From Lacinutrix sp. 5H-3-7-4 (lineage in GTDB: Bacteria > Bacteroidota > Bacteroidia > Flavobacteriales > Flavobacteriaceae): 64,000 nt of DNA. Below the pieces are notes generated by a model. The model was given only the letters and a program-made list of their open reading frames with translations, made no database searches and was not told where the DNA came from. Shown in pieces: positions 837 through 56,960 of the stretch; within the stretch, counting starts at the first letter, position 1; every line of letters starts with the position of its first letter. The DNA lies in contig NC_015638.1 in NCBI RefSeq assembly GCF_000211855.2, positions 3,135,001 through 3,199,000 of the forward strand. Reading direction: 5' to 3'. The position numbers and the translations under genes are program-made.

Positions 837-920
837 TTCTAATTAATTTAACAAATAATACGGAATCGTTCGTGATTTAGAAGGAATATAGACGGGATGT
901 ATACAAGTTAATTTACTTGC

Positions 921-1200
921 AAGTCTTTAACGATTGGCATCGTAGAAATGCATTTCTAAACGTTGTTAACGTATTAAAGACTTAAGTTAAGATAGCAAAA
1001 AAAAATGAGAAAGTCAAATGCTATCTTATATACAGAGCTCTTATGCCTTATAAATCATCACGTGTGCAACTACCCTTATACAAGGTATAAAGGTAATAAC
1101 ACACGATCTCACGAGTGCTTCTATAGCATATCTGGTACTGGATTTGTTAAACTACGTTTTTTTGGTTACAGCTTAAAAGCTGAATGTGCTGTAAAAAACT
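921..1200 (+). ncRNA. Candidate structured RNA inside the 484-bp cassette
   Basis: AAGTCTTTAA (921-930) pairs perfectly with TTAAAGACTT (974-983). The enclosed bases are almost entirely three hairpins placed end to end: CGAT-TGGC-ATCG (931-942), the 16-base palindrome TAGAAATGCATTTCTA (943-958) and CGTT-GTT-AACG (961-971). That makes a compact four-way junction. Further stems follow: GATAGCA/TGCTATC across 991-1025, CGTGTG/CACACG across 1061-1105 with an inner CCTTATAC/GTATAAAGG hairpin, and CAGCTT-AA-AAGCTG at 1169-1182, or alternatively TTACAGC/GCTGTAA. The same structures occur in the other three copies at offsets +51229, +53367 and +54784. Because the copies do not differ there is no covariation, so an RNA role is an inference from fold density alone. 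The exact ends are not known. Confidence 0.4.
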
Positions 1201-1279
1201 TATCAGAACGCCGTATACAAGTCATACCTTACATGTCTTTTTATTTTAGATAGTCTAATTTATTTATTTAAACTATCTT

Positions 1280-1287
1280 TAGTTTTG
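1280..1287 (+). promoter_or_regulatory. Outward-facing -7 box (TAGTTTTG) at the end of the repeated cassette
   Basis: TAGTTTTG matches the Bacteroidota TAnnTTTG -7 element. It points into the downstream cassette gene and sits about 33 bases before the junction. No TTG -33 element is found 19-21 bases upstream, so the promoter is only weakly supported. The same box is at 52509-52516, 54647-54654 and 56064-56071, each time just upstream of a cassette gene. Confidence 0.3.
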
Positions 1288-1349
1288 GATATGAGTCGGT
1301 ACGACTCGTATACATAAACGTTGTAACACATTTGACCAAACTACCGCAA

Positions 1350-1877
1350 ATGAATGAAATTAAGATACCTTTAAGCAAAACGAAAATCATATTAATTATG
1401 ATTGGCGCATTAGCATTTGTTATTGGTGGAGCTTGGGGAGTTTTAGAACCTGAAAGATTTGCATCTATTCGTTATCCGAAAAACATTGTTTTTATAAGTG
1501 GACTAGCAGGAGTTTTATTCTTTGGACTTTGTTTCGTTTTTATAGCTAAAAAAGTCTTTAGCAGAAAAGCAGGTTTAACTATAAATGATGACGGAATTAT
1601 TGACAACTCAAACGCTACAAGTGTTGGACTTATAGAATGGAAAGATATAACTGGAATAAAATCTTGGGGAACAGGTTCAGCAAAAGTTATTGTCGTTTTG
1701 ACTTCTGAGCCAGAAAAATATATTGAACGTTCAAAGAACTTTATTTCAAAAAAAGCAATGAAAGCGAATAATAGAATCTATGGTTCACCATTGTCAATTA
1801 TTTCGAACTCATTGAGAATAAATTTCTCGGAATTAGAAAAACTGATTTCGGAACAAATTGAGAAACGGAAAAAATAA
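1350..1877 (+). CDS. STM3941-family membrane protein (cassette gene)
   Basis: The protein has two hydrophobic segments near its N-terminus (about residues 10-30 and 45-70). A basic soluble domain follows with SVGLIEWKDITGI, KYIERSKNF and the strongly recognisable run AMKANNRIYGSPLSI. These match what I remember of the STM3941 family, whose biochemical role is unknown; the shape recalls PH-like domains on a membrane anchor. I chose the ATG at 1350 (MNEIKIPL...). A TTG at 1332, only 12 bases after the cassette junction, is in frame and possible. It is the sole gene of its cassette (1321-2011), ends 7 bases before the R'' box, and directly follows the 484-bp repeat, which may supply its leader. 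Confidence 0.85.
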   Translation: MNEIKIPLSKTKIILIMIGALAFVIGGAWGVLEPERFASIRYPKNIVFISGLAGVLFFGLCFVFIAKKVFSRKAGLTINDDGIIDNSNATSVGLIEWKDITGIKSWGTGSAKVIVVLTSEPEKYIERSKNFISKKAMKANNRIYGSPLSIISNSLRINFSELEKLISEQIEKRKK

Positions 1878-1883
1878 AAAAAC

Positions 1884-2011
1884 GTGTTACAACACCGTAT
1901 ATAATTTATTGCTAGTTATAGCCTACTTACGAAAGTCCTCGCGGACTTTCTATTCGGTTTTTATTTGCTAAATTAGTTGCTTATACACGTAACAAACCAT
2001 ATACAACAACG
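1884..2011 (+). other. attC-like site of the STM3941 cassette
   Basis: R'' GTGTTACAAC (1884-1893) is the exact reverse complement of the first ten bases of this cassette, GTTGTAACAC (1320-1329). L'' GTATAT and L' ATATAC sit inside, and the central hairpin is GAAAGTCC-TCGC-GGACTTTC. The site ends at the GTT (2011-2013) that opens the next cassette. This perfect 10/10 R'/R'' pairing is one of the strongest pieces of evidence for the integron-like organisation. Confidence 0.85.
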
Positions 2012-2063
2012 TTGGCATTCATTATGACCCGTCCTGAATAAAGGCTACATAATTTTAAACATT

Positions 2064-2429
2064 ATGTACAAAAACGACAAAGTAATTAGACGGTATTCAG
2101 AACCTTTTAAATTAAAAATTTTAGCCGAACTTACAACCGGAAAACACACAAAAAGCGAACTTTGTAAACTCTACTCTATTGCACCTACAACTGTAAACGA
2201 GTGGATTAAAAAATACAATCGTAAAGACTTAATGAACACCAGAGTAAAAGTGGAAACTAAAGACGAAATATCTAGAATTAAAGCGCTACAAAAAGAGAAT
2301 GAAAAACTTAAAAAGCTACTGCTTAAAAAGGATCTCGATGCTATGGTAGAAGAATCTTACCTGGAAGTAGCTGCTGAAAAATTAGGATATAAAAATGTTC
2401 AGCAACTTAAAAAAAAACTCAATATCTAG
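2064..2429 (+). CDS. IS3-family transposase OrfA (HTH protein)
   Basis: This 121-residue protein begins with an HTH_Tnp/InsE-like domain (RRYSEPFKLKILAEL...SELCKLYSIAPTTVNEWIKK, residues 10-52). A leucine-zipper-like coiled coil follows (EISRIKALQKENEKLKKLLLKK, about 70-92). OrfA binds the IS ends and regulates transposition in this family. Near its end a run of nine A residues (2409-2417) can move ribosomes into the -1 frame to make the OrfAB transposase. It starts at an ATG 39 bases inside the left inverted repeat. Confidence 0.92.
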   Translation: MYKNDKVIRRYSEPFKLKILAELTTGKHTKSELCKLYSIAPTTVNEWIKKYNRKDLMNTRVKVETKDEISRIKALQKENEKLKKLLLKKDLDAMVEESYLEVAAEKLGYKNVQQLKKKLNI

Positions 2430-3286
2430 CCTTTATTAAAACTAGAAATAGAGCTAAGGGATTTGCTTCTTTATCAACTATAGTTAATTGTTTTGGACTT
2501 AAACGTGATGCGTATTATAAATACAAATCTAGAGCTGATAAACGTTTAAAAATAGAACAACAAATTATAGAAATTGTAAGTAAAAGACGTAAATCCCTTC
2601 CTAGAGAAGGCGTGCGTAAACTCGAAAAATCACTAAAAGACGATTTTATCAAAGCTAACTTAAAAGTTGGTAGAGATGCTTTGTTTAACGTGCTTAGAAA
2701 ACACCAAATGCTGACTCTTAGAAAGAAAACTAGTGCCAGAACAACGAATTCTTATCATCGCTTTTACAAATATAATAACCTGATAAAAGATATGGAAATT
2801 ACAAGGCCAAATCAAGTGTGGGTAAGTGATATAACATACATAAGAACTATTAAAGGTTTTTGTTATCTCGCTTTAATAACAGATATGCACTCTCGCAAAA
2901 TTGTTGGCTATGATCTTAGTGATAGCTTGGAACTAAAAGGATGTGTAAGAGCGTTAAATAAAGCTATTTATCAAGCTAAAAACATTAAACAACTTATTCA
3001 TCATTCCGATAGAGGAATACAGTATTGTAGCAATCAATACACCCAAATACTTAAAAGTAAAAAGATAGATATTAGTATGACTGAAGAAAATCATTGTTAT
3101 GAAAATGCCTTGGCTGAACGCGTAAACGGCATATTAAAAGATGAATTTTATCTCGACCAAACCTTTGATAACGTGGCTCACGCTAAAAGAGCTGCAAAAA
3201 ATGCAATTAATATATACAATGAAGTAAGATTACATTTATCTTTAGATTATAAAACACCTAATATGGTATATAAATTATCAGCTTAA
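2411..3286 (+). CDS. IS3-family transposase OrfB (DDE integrase), expressed by -1 frameshift
   Basis: The frame is open from 2411, right after a stop at 2408-2410, and continues unbroken through the GTG at 2612 that could be mistaken for a start. The N-terminal part contains the HTH_21 region (KGFASLSTIVNCFGLKRDAYYKYK...LPREGVRKLEK). The rve integrase core has all three acidic residues: D in WVSDITYIR, D in HHSDRGIQYCS and E in NALAERVNGILKDEF. Production of OrfAB by slippage on the A9 run at 2409-2417 is the usual IS3 mechanism. All catalytic residues are present and no internal stops are seen, so the element may still be active. Confidence 0.9.
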   Translation, partial: KKTQYLAFIKTRNRAKGFASLSTIVNCFGLKRDAYYKYKSRADKRLKIEQQIIEIVSKRRKSLPREGVRKLEKSLKDDFIKANLKVGRDALFNVLRKHQMLTLRKKTSARTTNSYHRFYKYNNLIKDMEITRPNQVWVSDITYIRTIKGFCYLALITDMHSRKIVGYDLSDSLELKGCVRALNKAIYQAKNIKQLIHHSDRGIQYCSNQYTQILKSKKIDISMTEENHCYENALAERVNGILKDEFYLDQTFDNVAHAKRAAKNAINIYNEVRLHLSLDYKTPNMVYKLSA

Positions 3287-3336
3287 TTCAATTTTAACCT
3301 GTAGCCATATTTCAGGACAAGACATTTAACAAACCT

Positions 3337-51942: not shown

Positions 51943-52065
51943 ACTAAAAAGTTGCGATAACCTGCCAAAAATAAAATATATACAAACTTTAATAAAAGTT
52001 GGTATATACCACCAAATTTGTTTGCTAACCGGTACAAAAATGATTATGTTTGGTATATATAATAG
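51943..52065 (+). other. Left boundary of the second array: hairpin-bearing, not attC-like
   Basis: Between the flavoprotein stop and the first cassette junction (G at 52065) lies TATATACCaccAAA...TTTGGTATATA, an inverted repeat, and ...GTATATATAATAG|TT at the junction. It lacks the tagcctactt...gcggac body seen in the attC sites and has no clear R'' box. It could be an attI-like or secondary recombination site, but no integrase gene is next to it. Confidence 0.4.
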
Positions 52066-52549
52066 TTCTAATTAATTTAACAAATAATACGGAATCGTTC
52101 GTGATTTAGAAGGAATATAGACGGGATGTATACAAGTTAATTTACTTGCAAGTCTTTAACGATTGGCATCGTAGAAATGCATTTCTAAACGTTGTTAACG
52201 TATTAAAGACTTAAGTTAAGATAGCAAAAAAAAATGAGAAAGTCAAATGCTATCTTATATACAGAGCTCTTATGCCTTATAAATCATCACGTGTGCAACT
52301 ACCCTTATACAAGGTATAAAGGTAATAACACACGATCTCACGAGTGCTTCTATAGCATATCTGGTACTGGATTTGTTAAACTACGTTTTTTTGGTTACAG
52401 CTTAAAAGCTGAATGTGCTGTAAAAAACTTATCAGAACGCCGTATACAAGTCATACCTTACATGTCTTTTTATTTTAGATAGTCTAATTTATTTATTTAA
52501 ACTATCTTTAGTTTTGGATATGAGTCGGTACGACTCGTATACATAAACG
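52066..52549 (+). repeat. 484-bp repeated cassette, copy 2 of 4
   Basis: Same length and, by eye, identical sequence to 837-1320. It is the first cassette of the second array and lies directly upstream of the secreted protein gene at 52607. Cloverleaf at 52150-52212, 82-codon frame at 52234-52482, attC-like end from 52431, -7 box at 52509-52516. Confidence 0.9.
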
Positions 52550-52606
52550 TTGTGCGTAAGTTGCTCACTCAAACCTAAAAAAACGAAAATATAAACCGAA
52601 AACAAA

Positions 52607-53410
52607 ATGAAGAAAATTTTACTACTGACAGTTATTCTAATTTCTAACCTTTCATTCGGACAGAATTTCCCAGGAAATGATGTCAATTTATTATTAGATA
52701 AAGAAATTAAAGTTAAAGAAAAAGATGAAAGTTTACAGAAATATGGATATGACCATTTTTACAAAAACGACAAAATGAAAAAGAAATATGACTGTTGTGA
52801 AAGTTATAATTCAAAGTATGCAGGATTAGTCGGAAAAATATTTAAAGTTTTATCTGCTGAACCATATAAAAACATAATCGGAACTGAAAAATATAAACTC
52901 AAAATAGAAAATGCTGAAACTGGAATTATCTATTTTGATTATGACCCAAAATATGAACATTCTTTTCCATTTGAGGTAATTGGAGGTTTGGACTTACCCG
53001 AAGATTTTTATTGTAAAACAATTAAAACTAAAACCGACAAGTTTGACGGAAAAACTACAAGTATGACTGATTATTCGGAGGGAATTTCATTTATGAAAGT
53101 AACCAAAGATGGTTCTTCTAAAATCTATATGTCTGTAAATGAAATTGGTTCGACATTAAACGTTGCTAAAAAAGGTTTAATCTTACTTTTAGAAAACGGA
53201 AAAAAAATTGAACGACCAAATGCAAAATTAGACACTAAAGTAAATAAAAGTGGTAGAGGTTATGTTTATTCAGCATTTATTGAACTAACTCAAGCGGAAA
53301 TTGATTTAATAATTGAAAACAAAATAACAGATAACAGATTATATATTTATGATGGCGAAATTAAAAATGGACAGAAATTGAGCGAATATTTAAAATGCCT
53401 AAATAAATAA
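52607..53410 (+). CDS. Secreted protein of unknown function (cassette gene)
   Basis: The 267-residue protein has a signal peptide (MKKILLLTVILISNLSFGQN). The mature part is lysine-rich, with KYDCCESYNSKYAGLVGKIF and YFDYDPKYEHSFPFEVIGGL. The C-terminal half (KGLILLLENGKKIERPNAKL, then YSAFIELTQAEIDLIIENKI) is reminiscent of small beta-domain proteins with a final regulatory strand. I do not recognise a named family. Sole gene of cassette 52550-53543. ATG lies 58 bases after the junction. Confidence 0.8.
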   Translation: MKKILLLTVILISNLSFGQNFPGNDVNLLLDKEIKVKEKDESLQKYGYDHFYKNDKMKKKYDCCESYNSKYAGLVGKIFKVLSAEPYKNIIGTEKYKLKIENAETGIIYFDYDPKYEHSFPFEVIGGLDLPEDFYCKTIKTKTDKFDGKTTSMTDYSEGISFMKVTKDGSSKIYMSVNEIGSTLNVAKKGLILLLENGKKIERPNAKLDTKVNKSGRGYVYSAFIELTQAEIDLIIENKITDNRLYIYDGEIKNGQKLSEYLKCLNK

Positions 53411-53414
53411 AACC

Positions 53415-53543
53415 TACGCACAACACCGTATAAAATTAATTGCTAGTTATAGCCTATTTACGAAAGTCCTCGCGGACTTTCTATCTGTGATTTATTTGCT
53501 AACTTTAGTGCTTAAACCACGCAACTAATCTTATACAAACACG
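53415..53543 (+). other. attC-like site of the cassette with the 267-residue protein
   Basis: R'' TACGCACAAC (53415-53424) is the exact reverse complement of the cassette's first ten bases GTTGTGCGTA (52549-52558). L'' GTATAA, L' TTATAC, hairpin GAAAGTCC-TCGC-GGACTTTC. The body is nearly the same as at 712-836 and 1884-2011. Confidence 0.87.
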
Positions 53544-53566
53544 TTAGCCACAAGCTAAAACCAACG

Positions 53567-54064
53567 ATGGGAAAAACGAGAAACTTAAATGGAATACCAG
53601 GAAATTTAGCGTTGAGTTACTTGAGTACACTCGGATACTATGATGGTGGATATATGGCTGACTGGTTGAATTTCATAGCTCGTGACAAAAATGTAAAAGA
53701 AATTAAAATTGACATTCTGAATAGCGGAATTGAACCTGTAGAAACGGATATCAGACCATTAAAAGCGGATTTGAAAAAATTGCGTGGAATACTTGAAAAG
53801 GAACTATCGAATAACGGATTTGAAATGGACTTTATTAAAAAGGCTGTTATGAAATTTGAAATACCAATTGACAATCCGAGATTTAAAAATACAGTTTATT
53901 GCTATCCATTTATTGAGGACGAAAATGGGAAAATTTATAAACCAAAAAAGCGAATTATTGAAACCGCTTACGAAGTTGACTTTAATCCGATTAAAAAGTT
54001 GAGAATGAAAACAGAACAAACTAAAAAAAATTGGATTGACAGAATTAAAGAAATATGGAACTGA
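53567..54064 (+). CDS. Cytoplasmic protein of unknown function (cassette gene)
   Basis: The 165-residue protein begins MGKTRNLNGIPGNLALSYLS and continues with TLGYYDGGYMADWLNFIARD. It has no signal peptide or membrane segment. The centre is charged and helical (PLKADLKKLRGILEKELSNN), followed by KFEIPIDNPRFKNTVYCYPF. No family recognised. Sole gene of cassette 53544-54203 and not preceded by the 484-bp repeat, unlike the other complete cassette genes. Confidence 0.78.
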   Translation: MGKTRNLNGIPGNLALSYLSTLGYYDGGYMADWLNFIARDKNVKEIKIDILNSGIEPVETDIRPLKADLKKLRGILEKELSNNGFEMDFIKKAVMKFEIPIDNPRFKNTVYCYPFIEDENGKIYKPKKRIIETAYEVDFNPIKKLRMKTEQTKKNWIDRIKEIWN

Positions 54065-54074
54065 ATAAAAGCCA

Positions 54075-54203
54075 GTGGCTAACAATGTATAACCGCAATT
54101 ACGGCGGATTCGACTACGTCCGAATCCACTCGGAATTGCTAACGCCAGTTCTTAACCGAAAATTAACGCATATTAACCCGTAACTGACGGTTATACGAGA
54201 CCG
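54075..54203 (+). other. attC-like site of the 165-residue-protein cassette
   Basis: R'' GTGGCTAAC (54075-54083) is the exact reverse complement of the cassette start GTTAGCCAC (53543-53551). L'' GTATAACCG pairs with L' CGGTTATAC near the junction. The central hairpin GGATTCG-acta-cgTCCGAATCC differs in sequence from the tagcctactt-type bodies, so attC structure rather than sequence is conserved. Confidence 0.87.
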
Positions 54204-54687
54204 TTCTAATTAATTTAACAAATAATACGGAATCGTTCGTGATTTAGAAGGAATATAGACGGGATGTATACAAGTTAATTTACTTGCAAGTCTTTAACGA
54301 TTGGCATCGTAGAAATGCATTTCTAAACGTTGTTAACGTATTAAAGACTTAAGTTAAGATAGCAAAAAAAAATGAGAAAGTCAAATGCTATCTTATATAC
54401 AGAGCTCTTATGCCTTATAAATCATCACGTGTGCAACTACCCTTATACAAGGTATAAAGGTAATAACACACGATCTCACGAGTGCTTCTATAGCATATCT
54501 GGTACTGGATTTGTTAAACTACGTTTTTTTGGTTACAGCTTAAAAGCTGAATGTGCTGTAAAAAACTTATCAGAACGCCGTATACAAGTCATACCTTACA
54601 TGTCTTTTTATTTTAGATAGTCTAATTTATTTATTTAAACTATCTTTAGTTTTGGATATGAGTCGGTACGACTCGTATACATAAACG
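54204..54687 (+). repeat. 484-bp repeated cassette, copy 3 of 4
   Basis: Identical by eye to the copies at 837, 52066 and 55621. Cloverleaf at 54288-54350, 82-codon frame at 54372-54620, -7 box at 54647-54654. The next gene's start codon is only 12 bases past the junction, so its leader must lie inside this repeat. Confidence 0.9.
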
Positions 54688-54698
54688 TTACCTGCAAT

Positions 54699-55499
54699 TT
54701 GAAAAAAGCAATCTACATATCAATTTTACTGACTTTAGGAATTTGGAACTTTTCATTTTCTCAAAAAACGGAAGTGGAAAAATATTATGTTCGAGTTGAT
54801 ACAGCTTTCGTAACGGAATTGAAAAAAGCGTATGAAACATCGACAGAGGAATTAATGAAAACTTTGGAAGTCAAAAACGAGAGACGCGAAAATTTAGGCT
54901 TTGGCTATCAATTAAAACAAAGTGGAAAAGGTCTTGGGAGTATGACAGTTAATTATCAGATTTTGTATTACAAAAACGAAATTGTTTCTTATCAACTAAC
55001 AACACGCATTCCGAATAAATCAAAGAGACTAAAAAAGCTTTACAAGGAAAAGCTATCTACTCTTTTCAAAGTTAATGACGATTATAAAGTGGAACCAATC
55101 TATTTCGGAATTGACAACTCAACCGAACCGTTAACTGGAATAGAAAAACGGAATAATAACAACCTGAACGAAATAATGAGTCCATTTATTGGAATAACTT
55201 TTGGTGATTACTGTGGTTATGGAATGAGCTTAATGAACAACAGAAAAGTGTTTGATGGATTAATAAAAAGTGAAAATTGTGAGTATTTACTATACAGCAA
55301 AAATCCAGCAACTCGATTAATGGCAATTGAATTTTATTATTGTAATCTGACTGAATTTGGTGATGCTCAAAAGAAATCGATTGAAACTCGAATTGAGGAA
55401 TTAAAAACAAAACCAATGCTGACTGAAACTTGTTCTGGCTGTATTGTTGGTGGAAATAGAACTGAAAAAATAATAACGGAATTAAAAAACTGCAGGTAA
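54699..55499 (+). CDS. Secreted protein of unknown function (cassette gene)
   Basis: The 266-residue protein starts at TTG 54699, 12 bases into the cassette, with a signal peptide (KKAIYISILLTLGIWNFSFSQK). The mature part carries YYVRVDTAFVTELKKAYETS and LKQSGKGLGSMTVNYQILYY. Four Cys residues lie near the end (CNLTEF, ETCSGCIVGG, LKNCR), hinting at disulfides. No family recognised. The stop codon (55497-55499) lies inside the R'' box, so the frame fills the cassette from end to end and has no room for its own promoter. Confidence 0.8.
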   Translation: MKKAIYISILLTLGIWNFSFSQKTEVEKYYVRVDTAFVTELKKAYETSTEELMKTLEVKNERRENLGFGYQLKQSGKGLGSMTVNYQILYYKNEIVSYQLTTRIPNKSKRLKKLYKEKLSTLFKVNDDYKVEPIYFGIDNSTEPLTGIEKRNNNNLNEIMSPFIGITFGDYCGYGMSLMNNRKVFDGLIKSENCEYLLYSKNPATRLMAIEFYYCNLTEFGDAQKKSIETRIEELKTKPMLTETCSGCIVGGNRTEKIITELKNCR

Positions 55500-55620
55500 C
55501 AATGGCTATAATTTATTGCGGTTGAATTCCTAATCGGAATTCAACGCTTATTTGCTATCTTTCGGCTACGGCGGAAAGAATCCTGCGGATTTTTCCGCAA
55601 CGAAATCATAGCCGAGACCG
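55491..55620 (+). other. attC-like site of the 266-residue-protein cassette
   Basis: R'' TGCAGGTAAC (55491-55500) is the exact reverse complement of the cassette start GTTACCTGCA (54687-54696). A long outer stem pairs GGCTATAATTTATTGCGG with CCGCAACGAAATCATAGCC. Inside are hairpins GTTGAATTCC/GGAATTCAAC and GCGGAAA/TTTTCCGC. It ends ...GAGACCG|TT. Confidence 0.87.
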
Positions 55621-56104
55621 TTCTAATTAATTTAACAAATAATACGGAATCGTTCGTGATTTAGAAGGAATATAGACGGGATGTATACAAGTTAATTTAC
55701 TTGCAAGTCTTTAACGATTGGCATCGTAGAAATGCATTTCTAAACGTTGTTAACGTATTAAAGACTTAAGTTAAGATAGCAAAAAAAAATGAGAAAGTCA
55801 AATGCTATCTTATATACAGAGCTCTTATGCCTTATAAATCATCACGTGTGCAACTACCCTTATACAAGGTATAAAGGTAATAACACACGATCTCACGAGT
55901 GCTTCTATAGCATATCTGGTACTGGATTTGTTAAACTACGTTTTTTTGGTTACAGCTTAAAAGCTGAATGTGCTGTAAAAAACTTATCAGAACGCCGTAT
56001 ACAAGTCATACCTTACATGTCTTTTTATTTTAGATAGTCTAATTTATTTATTTAAACTATCTTTAGTTTTGGATATGAGTCGGTACGACTCGTATACATA
56101 AACG
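55621..56104 (+). repeat. 484-bp repeated cassette, copy 4 of 4
   Basis: Identical by eye to the other three copies. Cloverleaf at 55705-55767, 82-codon frame at 55789-56037, -7 box at 56064-56071. Followed directly by the last cassette gene. Confidence 0.9.
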
Positions 56105-56138
56105 TTTGTATGCCATTTAAAAAAACTCTATCTGAAAT

Positions 56139-56840
56139 ATGATAATGCCTTCTGACAAAGACTATAAGTCAACCAAAAAAATAAAACAAAATATCTCGAA
56201 TATTAAAGAGGAATTCGGGCAACTTGCTAAGTGGATTGACATAAAATATAATGTCAAAACATTAAACCTAATTTTCGATTATATAGATAACGACAAATCT
56301 AATCCTCGACTTCAAGTTTGTTTAGAATATGCAAAGGACAAAGGAAAGTTTATGGACAATAAGACCTATAAATTTGACGAAAGAAAACAGAACGAAATTG
56401 CGAAAAAGTTTGTAGAAATAACTTCAGATTATGAACTAAAAAACAAACCGAATTGGATTCAAATACTGCTTGGACTGACTTATAAATCGAATAATTTATT
56501 TGTCTATTTTTCTGACTTTGAAACAATAGCAAAAGATGAGGCAAATGAAAAAATTCCTGACAAAGACATCAAAAAACTGAAATCGGAAATAAATAATCCA
56601 GAAATATGGACGATTGATAGAAGATTTAATTGTGCTACAATTTTTTTTTATACAGATAAGCAATTAACGAAATACCAAGATTCTGAATTACATAAAAAAT
56701 GGAATGAACAATATTTTGACATACTCAAAAAGTATGACGAATTCGGATATTTTAAGAAAGATTTTTATTCAGTTTTTTTAGATAGTAAAGAGAATTTTGA
56801 CACTAATTATGAAAGTAATTGGTACTACTACTATAAATAA
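56139..56840 (+). CDS. Cytoplasmic protein of unknown function (cassette gene)
   Basis: The 233-residue protein has no signal peptide. It begins MIMPSDKDYKSTKKIKQNIS and is rich in Lys, Asp, Asn and aromatic residues, for example WIDIKYNVKTLNLIFDYIDN and FAKKFVEITSDYEL-like helices. It ends YESNWYYYYK. No family recognised. Last cassette of the array (56105 to about 56960). The ATG is 35 bases after the junction. Confidence 0.78.
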   Translation: MIMPSDKDYKSTKKIKQNISNIKEEFGQLAKWIDIKYNVKTLNLIFDYIDNDKSNPRLQVCLEYAKDKGKFMDNKTYKFDERKQNEIAKKFVEITSDYELKNKPNWIQILLGLTYKSNNLFVYFSDFETIAKDEANEKIPDKDIKKLKSEINNPEIWTIDRRFNCATIFFYTDKQLTKYQDSELHKKWNEQYFDILKKYDEFGYFKKDFYSVFLDSKENFDTNYESNWYYYYK

Positions 56841-56845
56841 AAAAC

Positions 56846-56960
56846 GGCATACAACAATGTATTATATTAATTAACTCAATTAATCCTTATAAATAAAGGG
56901 TTTTAGAAGATTAATTAAAAAAGGGTACAACATAGGTATAACATTTTAACCAATAATTAA
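56846..56960 (+). other. Degenerate attC-like end of the second array
   Basis: R'' GGCATACAAC (56846-56855) matches the cassette start GTTTGTATGCC (56104-56114) with one extra T. Inside are AATTAATC/GATTAATT and CCTT/AAGG stems, but no GTT junction follows, so the site looks eroded or truncated where the array meets the accessory region. Confidence 0.6.

Follow-up and report, generated by a model that had tools for sequence, protein, structure and literature searches.

What is a 484-bp block without a gene doing in several places of one bacterial genome, letter for letter the same in each? The question was raised by a window of 64,000 nucleotides (the whole stretch of DNA analysed here) from Lacinutrix sp. 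5H-3-7-4, in which the original prediction had counted four identical copies. Their coordinates and their identity over 484 bases proved right; the total is five, since a further identical copy lies just left of the window (G000 3134494-3134977). All five copies in this one-contig genome (3,296,168 bp) are 100% identical and share one orientation. They occupy two cassette arrays: array B has three, and array A has two, including the copy beyond the edge of the window. Their neighbours differ from copy to copy, and the block is the only repeated cassette of these two arrays. Beyond the block, all five have in common just a single G on the left and TT on the right, so that the expectation that every end would fall on G^TT holds at five of five copies; the same is true of both copies of a relative in another genome, G084. 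An 82-aa ORF is open in all copies, which are of course identical, and it is not conserved: it is interrupted in a relative in G006, has no counterpart in the G084 cassette and has no Pfam match. We rejected a protein-coding reading on these grounds. A phage or plasmid origin was also rejected, because the 484 bp found no match in phage or plasmid collections and the core pattern of the cassette (see below) none in viral contigs.

The surroundings of the copies are those of an integron-like system. In array B, a leader of some 120 bp precedes four cargo cassettes, whose ORFs have no Pfam match above cut-off, and the three copies of the block. Array A opens with this leader too, at a point left of the window, and its last cassette is followed directly by an insertion sequence (HTH_Tnp_1 and rve domains; window 2012-3330). 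Each of the eight cargo cassettes in the two arrays begins with bases that can pair with the left part of its attC, as integron cassettes do. When applied to the other four leaders, this complementarity rule alone chains 10, 3, 2 and 3 cassettes; array B shuffled 30 times gave no chain longer than two. Starting from the leaders of array A and array B, the rule yields 1 and 0 and halts at the 484-bp cassette, the start of which pairs weakly with its own attC (about 4 bp). The genome contains six matches to the leader, of which five are nearly complete and the sixth spans 73 bp, and 5 of 13 Lacinutrix genomes including this one have it (6, 5, 2, 1 and 1 matches). One leader extends into the start of a tyrosine recombinase gene, sharing its first codons, and has cassettes after it; an attI site is usually placed beside the start of the recombinase gene. 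The leaders without a recombinase gene include a decayed piece of that gene's first codons. Taken together, the shared leader, the attC complementarity and the single recombinase identify an integron-like system in which a single recombinase of this type is accompanied by several attI-like sites. Junctions, attC geometry, leader and recombinase also bear out the earlier suggestion that a recombination system has repeatedly reinserted a small non-coding cassette. Tiny cassettes of 180 bp, with no room for more than an attC, were also seen in three different arrays of this genome (L010 19314-19493, L022 5556-5735 and L023 11449-11628).

Table 1. Features of the cassette arrays. Positions refer to the window, except those marked G000, which refer to the genome.
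Feature	Position	Strand	Basis or remark
484-bp gene-less cassette, array A copy	837..1320	+	Identity with other copies; G and TT bounds
484-bp cassette, first of array B, directly 3' of attI-like leader	52066..52549	+	
484-bp cassette, array B	54204..54687	+	
484-bp cassette, array B	55621..56104	+	
attC of the 837 copy	1204..1320 (left limit approximate)	+	Imperfect palindrome, CAGAAC to G^TT end
Possible P1 left arm	873..888	.	Helix finder; right arm 1042-1057; weak in own genome
Core hairpin P3 of the 837 copy	920..983	.	R2 match from 920, fold, covariation
P3 in other copies	52149-52212, 54287-54350, 55704-55767		Same offset
Promoter-like motif TTGACTTT-N15-TATCTT	989..1017	-	Leftward into P3; exact pattern and conservation
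Promoter-like motif, other copies	52218-52246, 54356-54384, 55773-55801	-	
attI-like leader of array B	51948..52065	+	Same sequence beside recombinase gene and at other array starts
Six attI-like leaders	G000 640949, 1770894, 1999059, 3013640, 3133411, 3186942		The last at window 51942
Cargo cassette after the 837 copy, 181-aa ORF	1321..2011	+	No Pfam match
Cargo cassette, 267-aa ORF	52550..53543	+	
Cargo cassette, 165-aa ORF	53544..54203	+	
Cargo cassette, 266-aa ORF	54688..55620	+	
Last cargo cassette of array B, 233-aa ORF	56105..56945 (right limit approximate)	+	

The recombinase (279 aa, G000 3012825-3013661, domain PF00589) is the sole match of its kind in the genome at E 1e-40, and no relative of it lies beside arrays A and B. 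Its best solved relatives are XerC-like, XerA and XerD proteins. Where IntI4 has 65 residues it has 22, with about 43 missing, and the IntI-specific additional domain was not found in it. Against the integron integrase model TIGR02249 (cut-off 265) it scores 178.9 bits and eight of its relatives 188-211, and against NF040815 (cut-off 220) it scores 199.4 while four of the eight relatives pass; the latter model, recomb_XerA_Arch, bears the name 'site-specific tyrosine recombinase/integron integrase'. Relatives at E 1e-40 or better are present in 250 of 397 genomes of the family Flavobacteriaceae, either in a short form of about 280 aa or in a long form of about 350-410 aa. With the long form the attI-like site lies just 3' of the gene, and the first cassette begins about 25-50 bp after the stop codon (G092, G111 and G129). 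IntegronFinder requires both PF00589 and the IntI-specific domain (PMC9668308), so the flavobacterial recombinases are probably missed by it. One relative is located on a mobilizable plasmid of Flagellimonas marinaquae (L185, NZ_CP092416.1), where it adjoins erm(F), a dihydrofolate reductase family gene and a Tn3 family transposase. Four contigs (L030, L032, L033 and L037) stop 46-233 bases before their recombinase match, as would be expected if attI or the first cassette were repeated there.

The gene-less cassette itself has relatives well beyond Lacinutrix. A DNA search of the 397 family genomes matched 13, ten of them over 54 bases or less, and long stretches were confined to the Lacinutrix genome, G006 (in part) and G084. 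The G084 relative is identical at its two places and has a predicted core fold that resembles that of the 484-bp block. The partial relative in G006 (L026 6200-6445) has lost its left part, precedes a cargo cassette and lies some 600 bases beyond an apparent tRNA gene. A covariance model built from the block and the G084 relative (R1) found 16 of the 397 genomes at E 0.01. Its successor R2, built from 16 sequences, found 29 of the 397 at E 1e-3, one in each of 29 genera, with 56 places in all and two or more in 11 genomes; 13 of these 29 genomes had no part in building the model. The family is therefore absent from the other 368 by this measure. R2 also clearly matches two further genomes of the genus Lacinutrix (G002 and G003) and, outside the family, three among 247 genomes of the class (E 2e-9, 2.7e-5 and 7e-4). 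Two hits of R1, L095 and L099, were judged false by eye and excluded from later alignments. A known RNA was rejected as an explanation because Rfam 15 gave no match at gathering score in 15 loci; a looser search gave weak hits in the window stretch (E 0.39 or more) and none in two relatives.

Copies were aligned within six genomes besides Lacinutrix sp. 5H-3-7-4. They mostly agree inside a genome and differ between genomes: two copies of 607 bp are 100% identical in G052, three agree at 99% in G129, six at 94-99% over about 571 bp in G111 and two at 96% in G267. In G092 the eight copies fall into two variants: six, of 473-482 bp, agree at 99.8-100%, and the others differ from these by about 9%. 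In G373 only 221 bp match between copies (97%). In the G111 recombinase array, too, the cassette is the only repeated one; in G092, G129 and G267 other cassettes are repeated as well, so that copying itself is not special to this family. Orientation relative to the cassette is constant in our genome and in G092, G111, G129, G052 and G267. An invertible promoter was not found: inverted repeats are present in most genomes, but a second orientation was not found in the six just named.

What is shared between genomes is a fold. In 30 distinct aligned sequences 88.7% of the core cells pair, the alignment having been fitted to the model, which favours this score. Fourteen of 19 core pairs have changed on both sides, double changes occupy 63 cells against a shuffled mean of 17.0 (none of 500 shuffles was as high), and sliding the partner by 1-3 columns leaves 31-45% paired. 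One of the four core helices is weaker (73.6% paired). Most genomes also have inverted repeats flanking the core, termed P1, the sequences of which differ by genome; they reach 21 bp without a mismatch in G317 and 19 bp in G173. In an alignment-free comparison the flanks of the core pair better within their own genome than across genomes (mean -30.0 vs -22.4 kcal/mol; none of 20,000 permutations did as well), and the own partner ranks first in 11 of 29. The P1 of the Lacinutrix cassette is unremarkable in this respect, at rank 6 of 29 and, over a longer stretch, with 612 of 756 cross pairs as good. A further hairpin left of P3, P2, was found in 26 of 32 genomes (13.4 expected under mononucleotide shuffling). 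A fourth candidate, P4, had a conserved loop and was found in the right-hand stretch in 28 of 32 genomes against 16.8 expected by shuffling; we set it aside because the 32 aligned rows have no gap there and the opposite strand of the stretch reads as a promoter. Pairing of a loop 8-mer with the recombinase gene was also rejected, its complement being present in one of five recombinase regions. Since sequence varies between genomes while pairing is kept, the strong selection on sequence that had been offered to account for the identical copies is unneeded, and we infer that the five are identical through recent spread.

Which strand the fold serves is not clear from its wobble pairs. The core has 22 G.T against 16 A.C cells, or 15 against 8 once three weak pairs are left out, and seven of its G.T cells come from a single pair where we consider the alignment doubtful; P1 has 4 against 11, P2 has 6 against 2, and the stretch beyond P3 on the right has 10 against 4. 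These counts give no clear strand and do not favour a bottom-strand RNA, from which more A.C would be expected than was counted. An RNA read leftwards would moreover not include the right arm of P1.

The stretch right of P3 has the look of a promoter directed leftwards into the hairpin. It is of fixed length, without gaps in 32 rows, and has the bottom-strand consensus TTGACTTTG-N14-TAnCTT. The Bacteroidota promoter has the form TTG-N17..23-TAnnTTTG, which we take the bottom-strand motif of the cassette to resemble. At least 11 of 14 motif positions are present in 29 of 34 genomes, compared with 1, 0 and 0 in three control stretches, with the proviso that the consensus was derived from the sequences on which it was scored and that the stretches of a few genomes are incomplete; the five below threshold are G129, G214 (an incomplete stretch), G268, G319 and G381. 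By a simple pattern, P3 starts about 3-6 bases past the motif in 29 of 34 genomes. When array B was scanned for sigma-70 promoters, the motif was marked on the minus strand in all three copies, but promoter-like sites in the array were not in excess (18 vs 25.2 in shuffles). Rightward matches to TTG-N17..23-TAnnTTTG occur in 3 of 29 cassettes (0.6 expected under mononucleotide shuffling), and a rightward promoter was rejected by this motif scan because the matches have no common place.

A similar motif is dispersed in relatives of our strain. Five other Lacinutrix genomes contain the exact pattern TTGACTTT-N15-TAnCTT 8, 14, 18, 11 and 12 times and its reversal 3, 1, 1, 0 and 0 times; the exact pattern is absent from G006, G092, G111 and G129. 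At 15 of the 21 Lacinutrix motif loci that were printed, an ORF of at least 50 aa begins within 300 bases downstream, usually with a hairpin between, which makes the promoter reading more likely. Together, motif and hairpin form an element of about 83 bp (L188-L202 and L203-L232) that ends at an (A/G)|TT boundary in front of genes; such elements are possibly dispersed insertion sites with a promoter of their own. They match R2 no better than weakly (E 0.006-0.1), which is too little to establish descent in common with the cassette.

In several genomes the cassette lies beside the recombinase. It is the first cassette after the recombinase gene in seven genomes (G317, G268, G092, G074, G111, G129 and G578, the last from another family than Flavobacteriaceae), and one copy in G052 follows a recombinase remnant. 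Elsewhere it comes after an attI-like site, with no recombinase match in the preceding 900 bases; this is so in array B and, judged by eye, in G373 (twice), G356 and G159. Such a place is not a rule: our genome does not have the cassette at the attI of the recombinase, and G168, G319 and G324 have it far from that gene. The recombinase is present in 27 of the 29 genomes with the RNA (the exceptions being G173 and G381) and in 223 of the 368 without it (p = 2.2e-4, a nominal value given that the genomes are related). Any leftward transcript would run antisense to the preceding cassette. With a long-form gene it is predicted to be antisense to the 3' end of the recombinase, and with a short-form gene it would run into the gene if the cassette were first there.

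On balance we favour the view that the block is a mobile non-coding transcription unit, which would fire leftwards against the array into a structured RNA and be spread by a recombinase acting in trans. To judge from the layout, a recombinase encoded elsewhere would excise the 484-bp block at its attC and reinsert it at the attI-like site or at attC junctions, always at the G^TT that is seen at each junction. The bottom-strand motif would then drive leftward transcription into the hairpin, whose pairing is known from comparison, and the product would be a short structured RNA with this hairpin at its 5' end. Least certain is the role; most likely the cassette supplies, in mobile form, a small RNA or a promoter whose target would be the attI site, the recombinase gene or the cassette next to it. 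Judged from sequence and comparison, then, the cassette probably serves a little-known gene-shuffling system as a mobile unit, either a regulatory RNA or a promoter.

The same fold might instead act as single-stranded DNA, either as a hairpin bound by the recombinase in the manner of attI or as an aid to folding out the bottom strand at excision. The bottom strand does fold as well as the top (z -7.2 as DNA and -6.8 as RNA, respectively, attC included in both), P1 has no G.U bias, and the dispersed Lacinutrix motif-plus-hairpin ends at an (A/G)|TT boundary before genes. We consider this unlikely but worth keeping in mind, because a motif at fixed spacing ahead of the hairpin looks like a promoter and P3 is about 110 bp from the cassette end, away from the junction. 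A somewhat smaller chance attaches to a selfish or neutral cassette, frequent through easier movement or retention and with a structure that has no host role. This would sit well with the other repeated cassettes of G092, G129 and G267 and with the absence of the family from most genomes, and less well with pairing and motif kept across about thirty genera or with a cassette that alone is repeated in its own two arrays and in that of G111.

That the cassette drives the genes downstream of it, like the gene-less cassettes of Vibrio, is suggested by its place directly ahead of cargo genes; given that the conserved motif points the opposite way and that rightward motifs are few and scattered, we regard this as improbable. 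We give almost no credence to a small protein gene or to a duplication made in assembly. Every copy has the ORF open, as identical ones must, but the ORF is broken in G006, absent in G084 and without a Pfam match, while differing flanks and an assembly in one contig speak against duplication.

Beyond the mobile transcription unit that we favour, a wider and more tentative picture can be drawn. Flavobacteriaceae may possess a widespread integron-like system that domain-based finders would miss, in which the recombinase has no IntI domain and works several attI-like sites in trans; its mobile companion, a promoter plus structured RNA, would repeatedly take first place after the recombinase and seed arrays with leftward transcripts that control recombinase or cassettes. 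The wide distribution of recombinase relatives points to a large integron-like system in Bacteroidota. A single non-coding family with covarying structure, often in several copies and spread across many genera, also makes the role of a non-coding cassette in its array testable. Bacteroidota are already listed among the phyla with integrons (PMC8618304), but the paper on IntegronFinder 2.0 names a single complete integron within Bacteroidetes proper, that of Salinibacter ruber (PMC9024848). In a literature search that covered mainly open-access journal papers, we found no description of a flavobacterial integron or of the cassette's RNA.

Known systems offer partial parallels for each component. 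An integron-like subgroup of tyrosine recombinases has been described in which the integron insertion is not fully conserved (PMC8138268). The system reported here shares with such systems cassettes, attC, attI and a tyrosine recombinase, and its enzyme, without the insertion and below the integron integrase cut-off, is likened to that subgroup by description. Arrays A and B, with no relative of the recombinase beside them, are reminiscent of CALIN, that is, cassette arrays without a recombinase (PMC8618304), but differ in that they keep an attI-like leader and that the genome does contain a recombinase, beside which that leader recurs. Cassettes that lack a gene and act as promoters are reported from the superintegrons of Vibrio (PMC11014356) and, as ORF-less cassettes of Treponema, from the oral metagenome (PMC6557892). 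The flavobacterial cassette is likewise gene-less, and the promoter activity shown there is proposed here; the promoters described there, however, act mainly on the sense strand, whereas the flavobacterial motif points against the array, and the covarying structure common to about thirty genera sets our cassette apart from those described. Similar in description are the sRNA-Xcc1 cassettes of Xanthomonas, which encode a small RNA directed against the array and are the most widespread cassette in that genus (PMC12444791). Our cassette too has a putative small RNA directed against the array, but it has no second gene where the sRNA-Xcc1 cassette also carries symE. Gene-less cassettes and one integron small RNA were thus already known, and what the flavobacterial genomes add to them is a widespread family of structured non-coding cassettes in a system that is integron-like and not strictly an integron.
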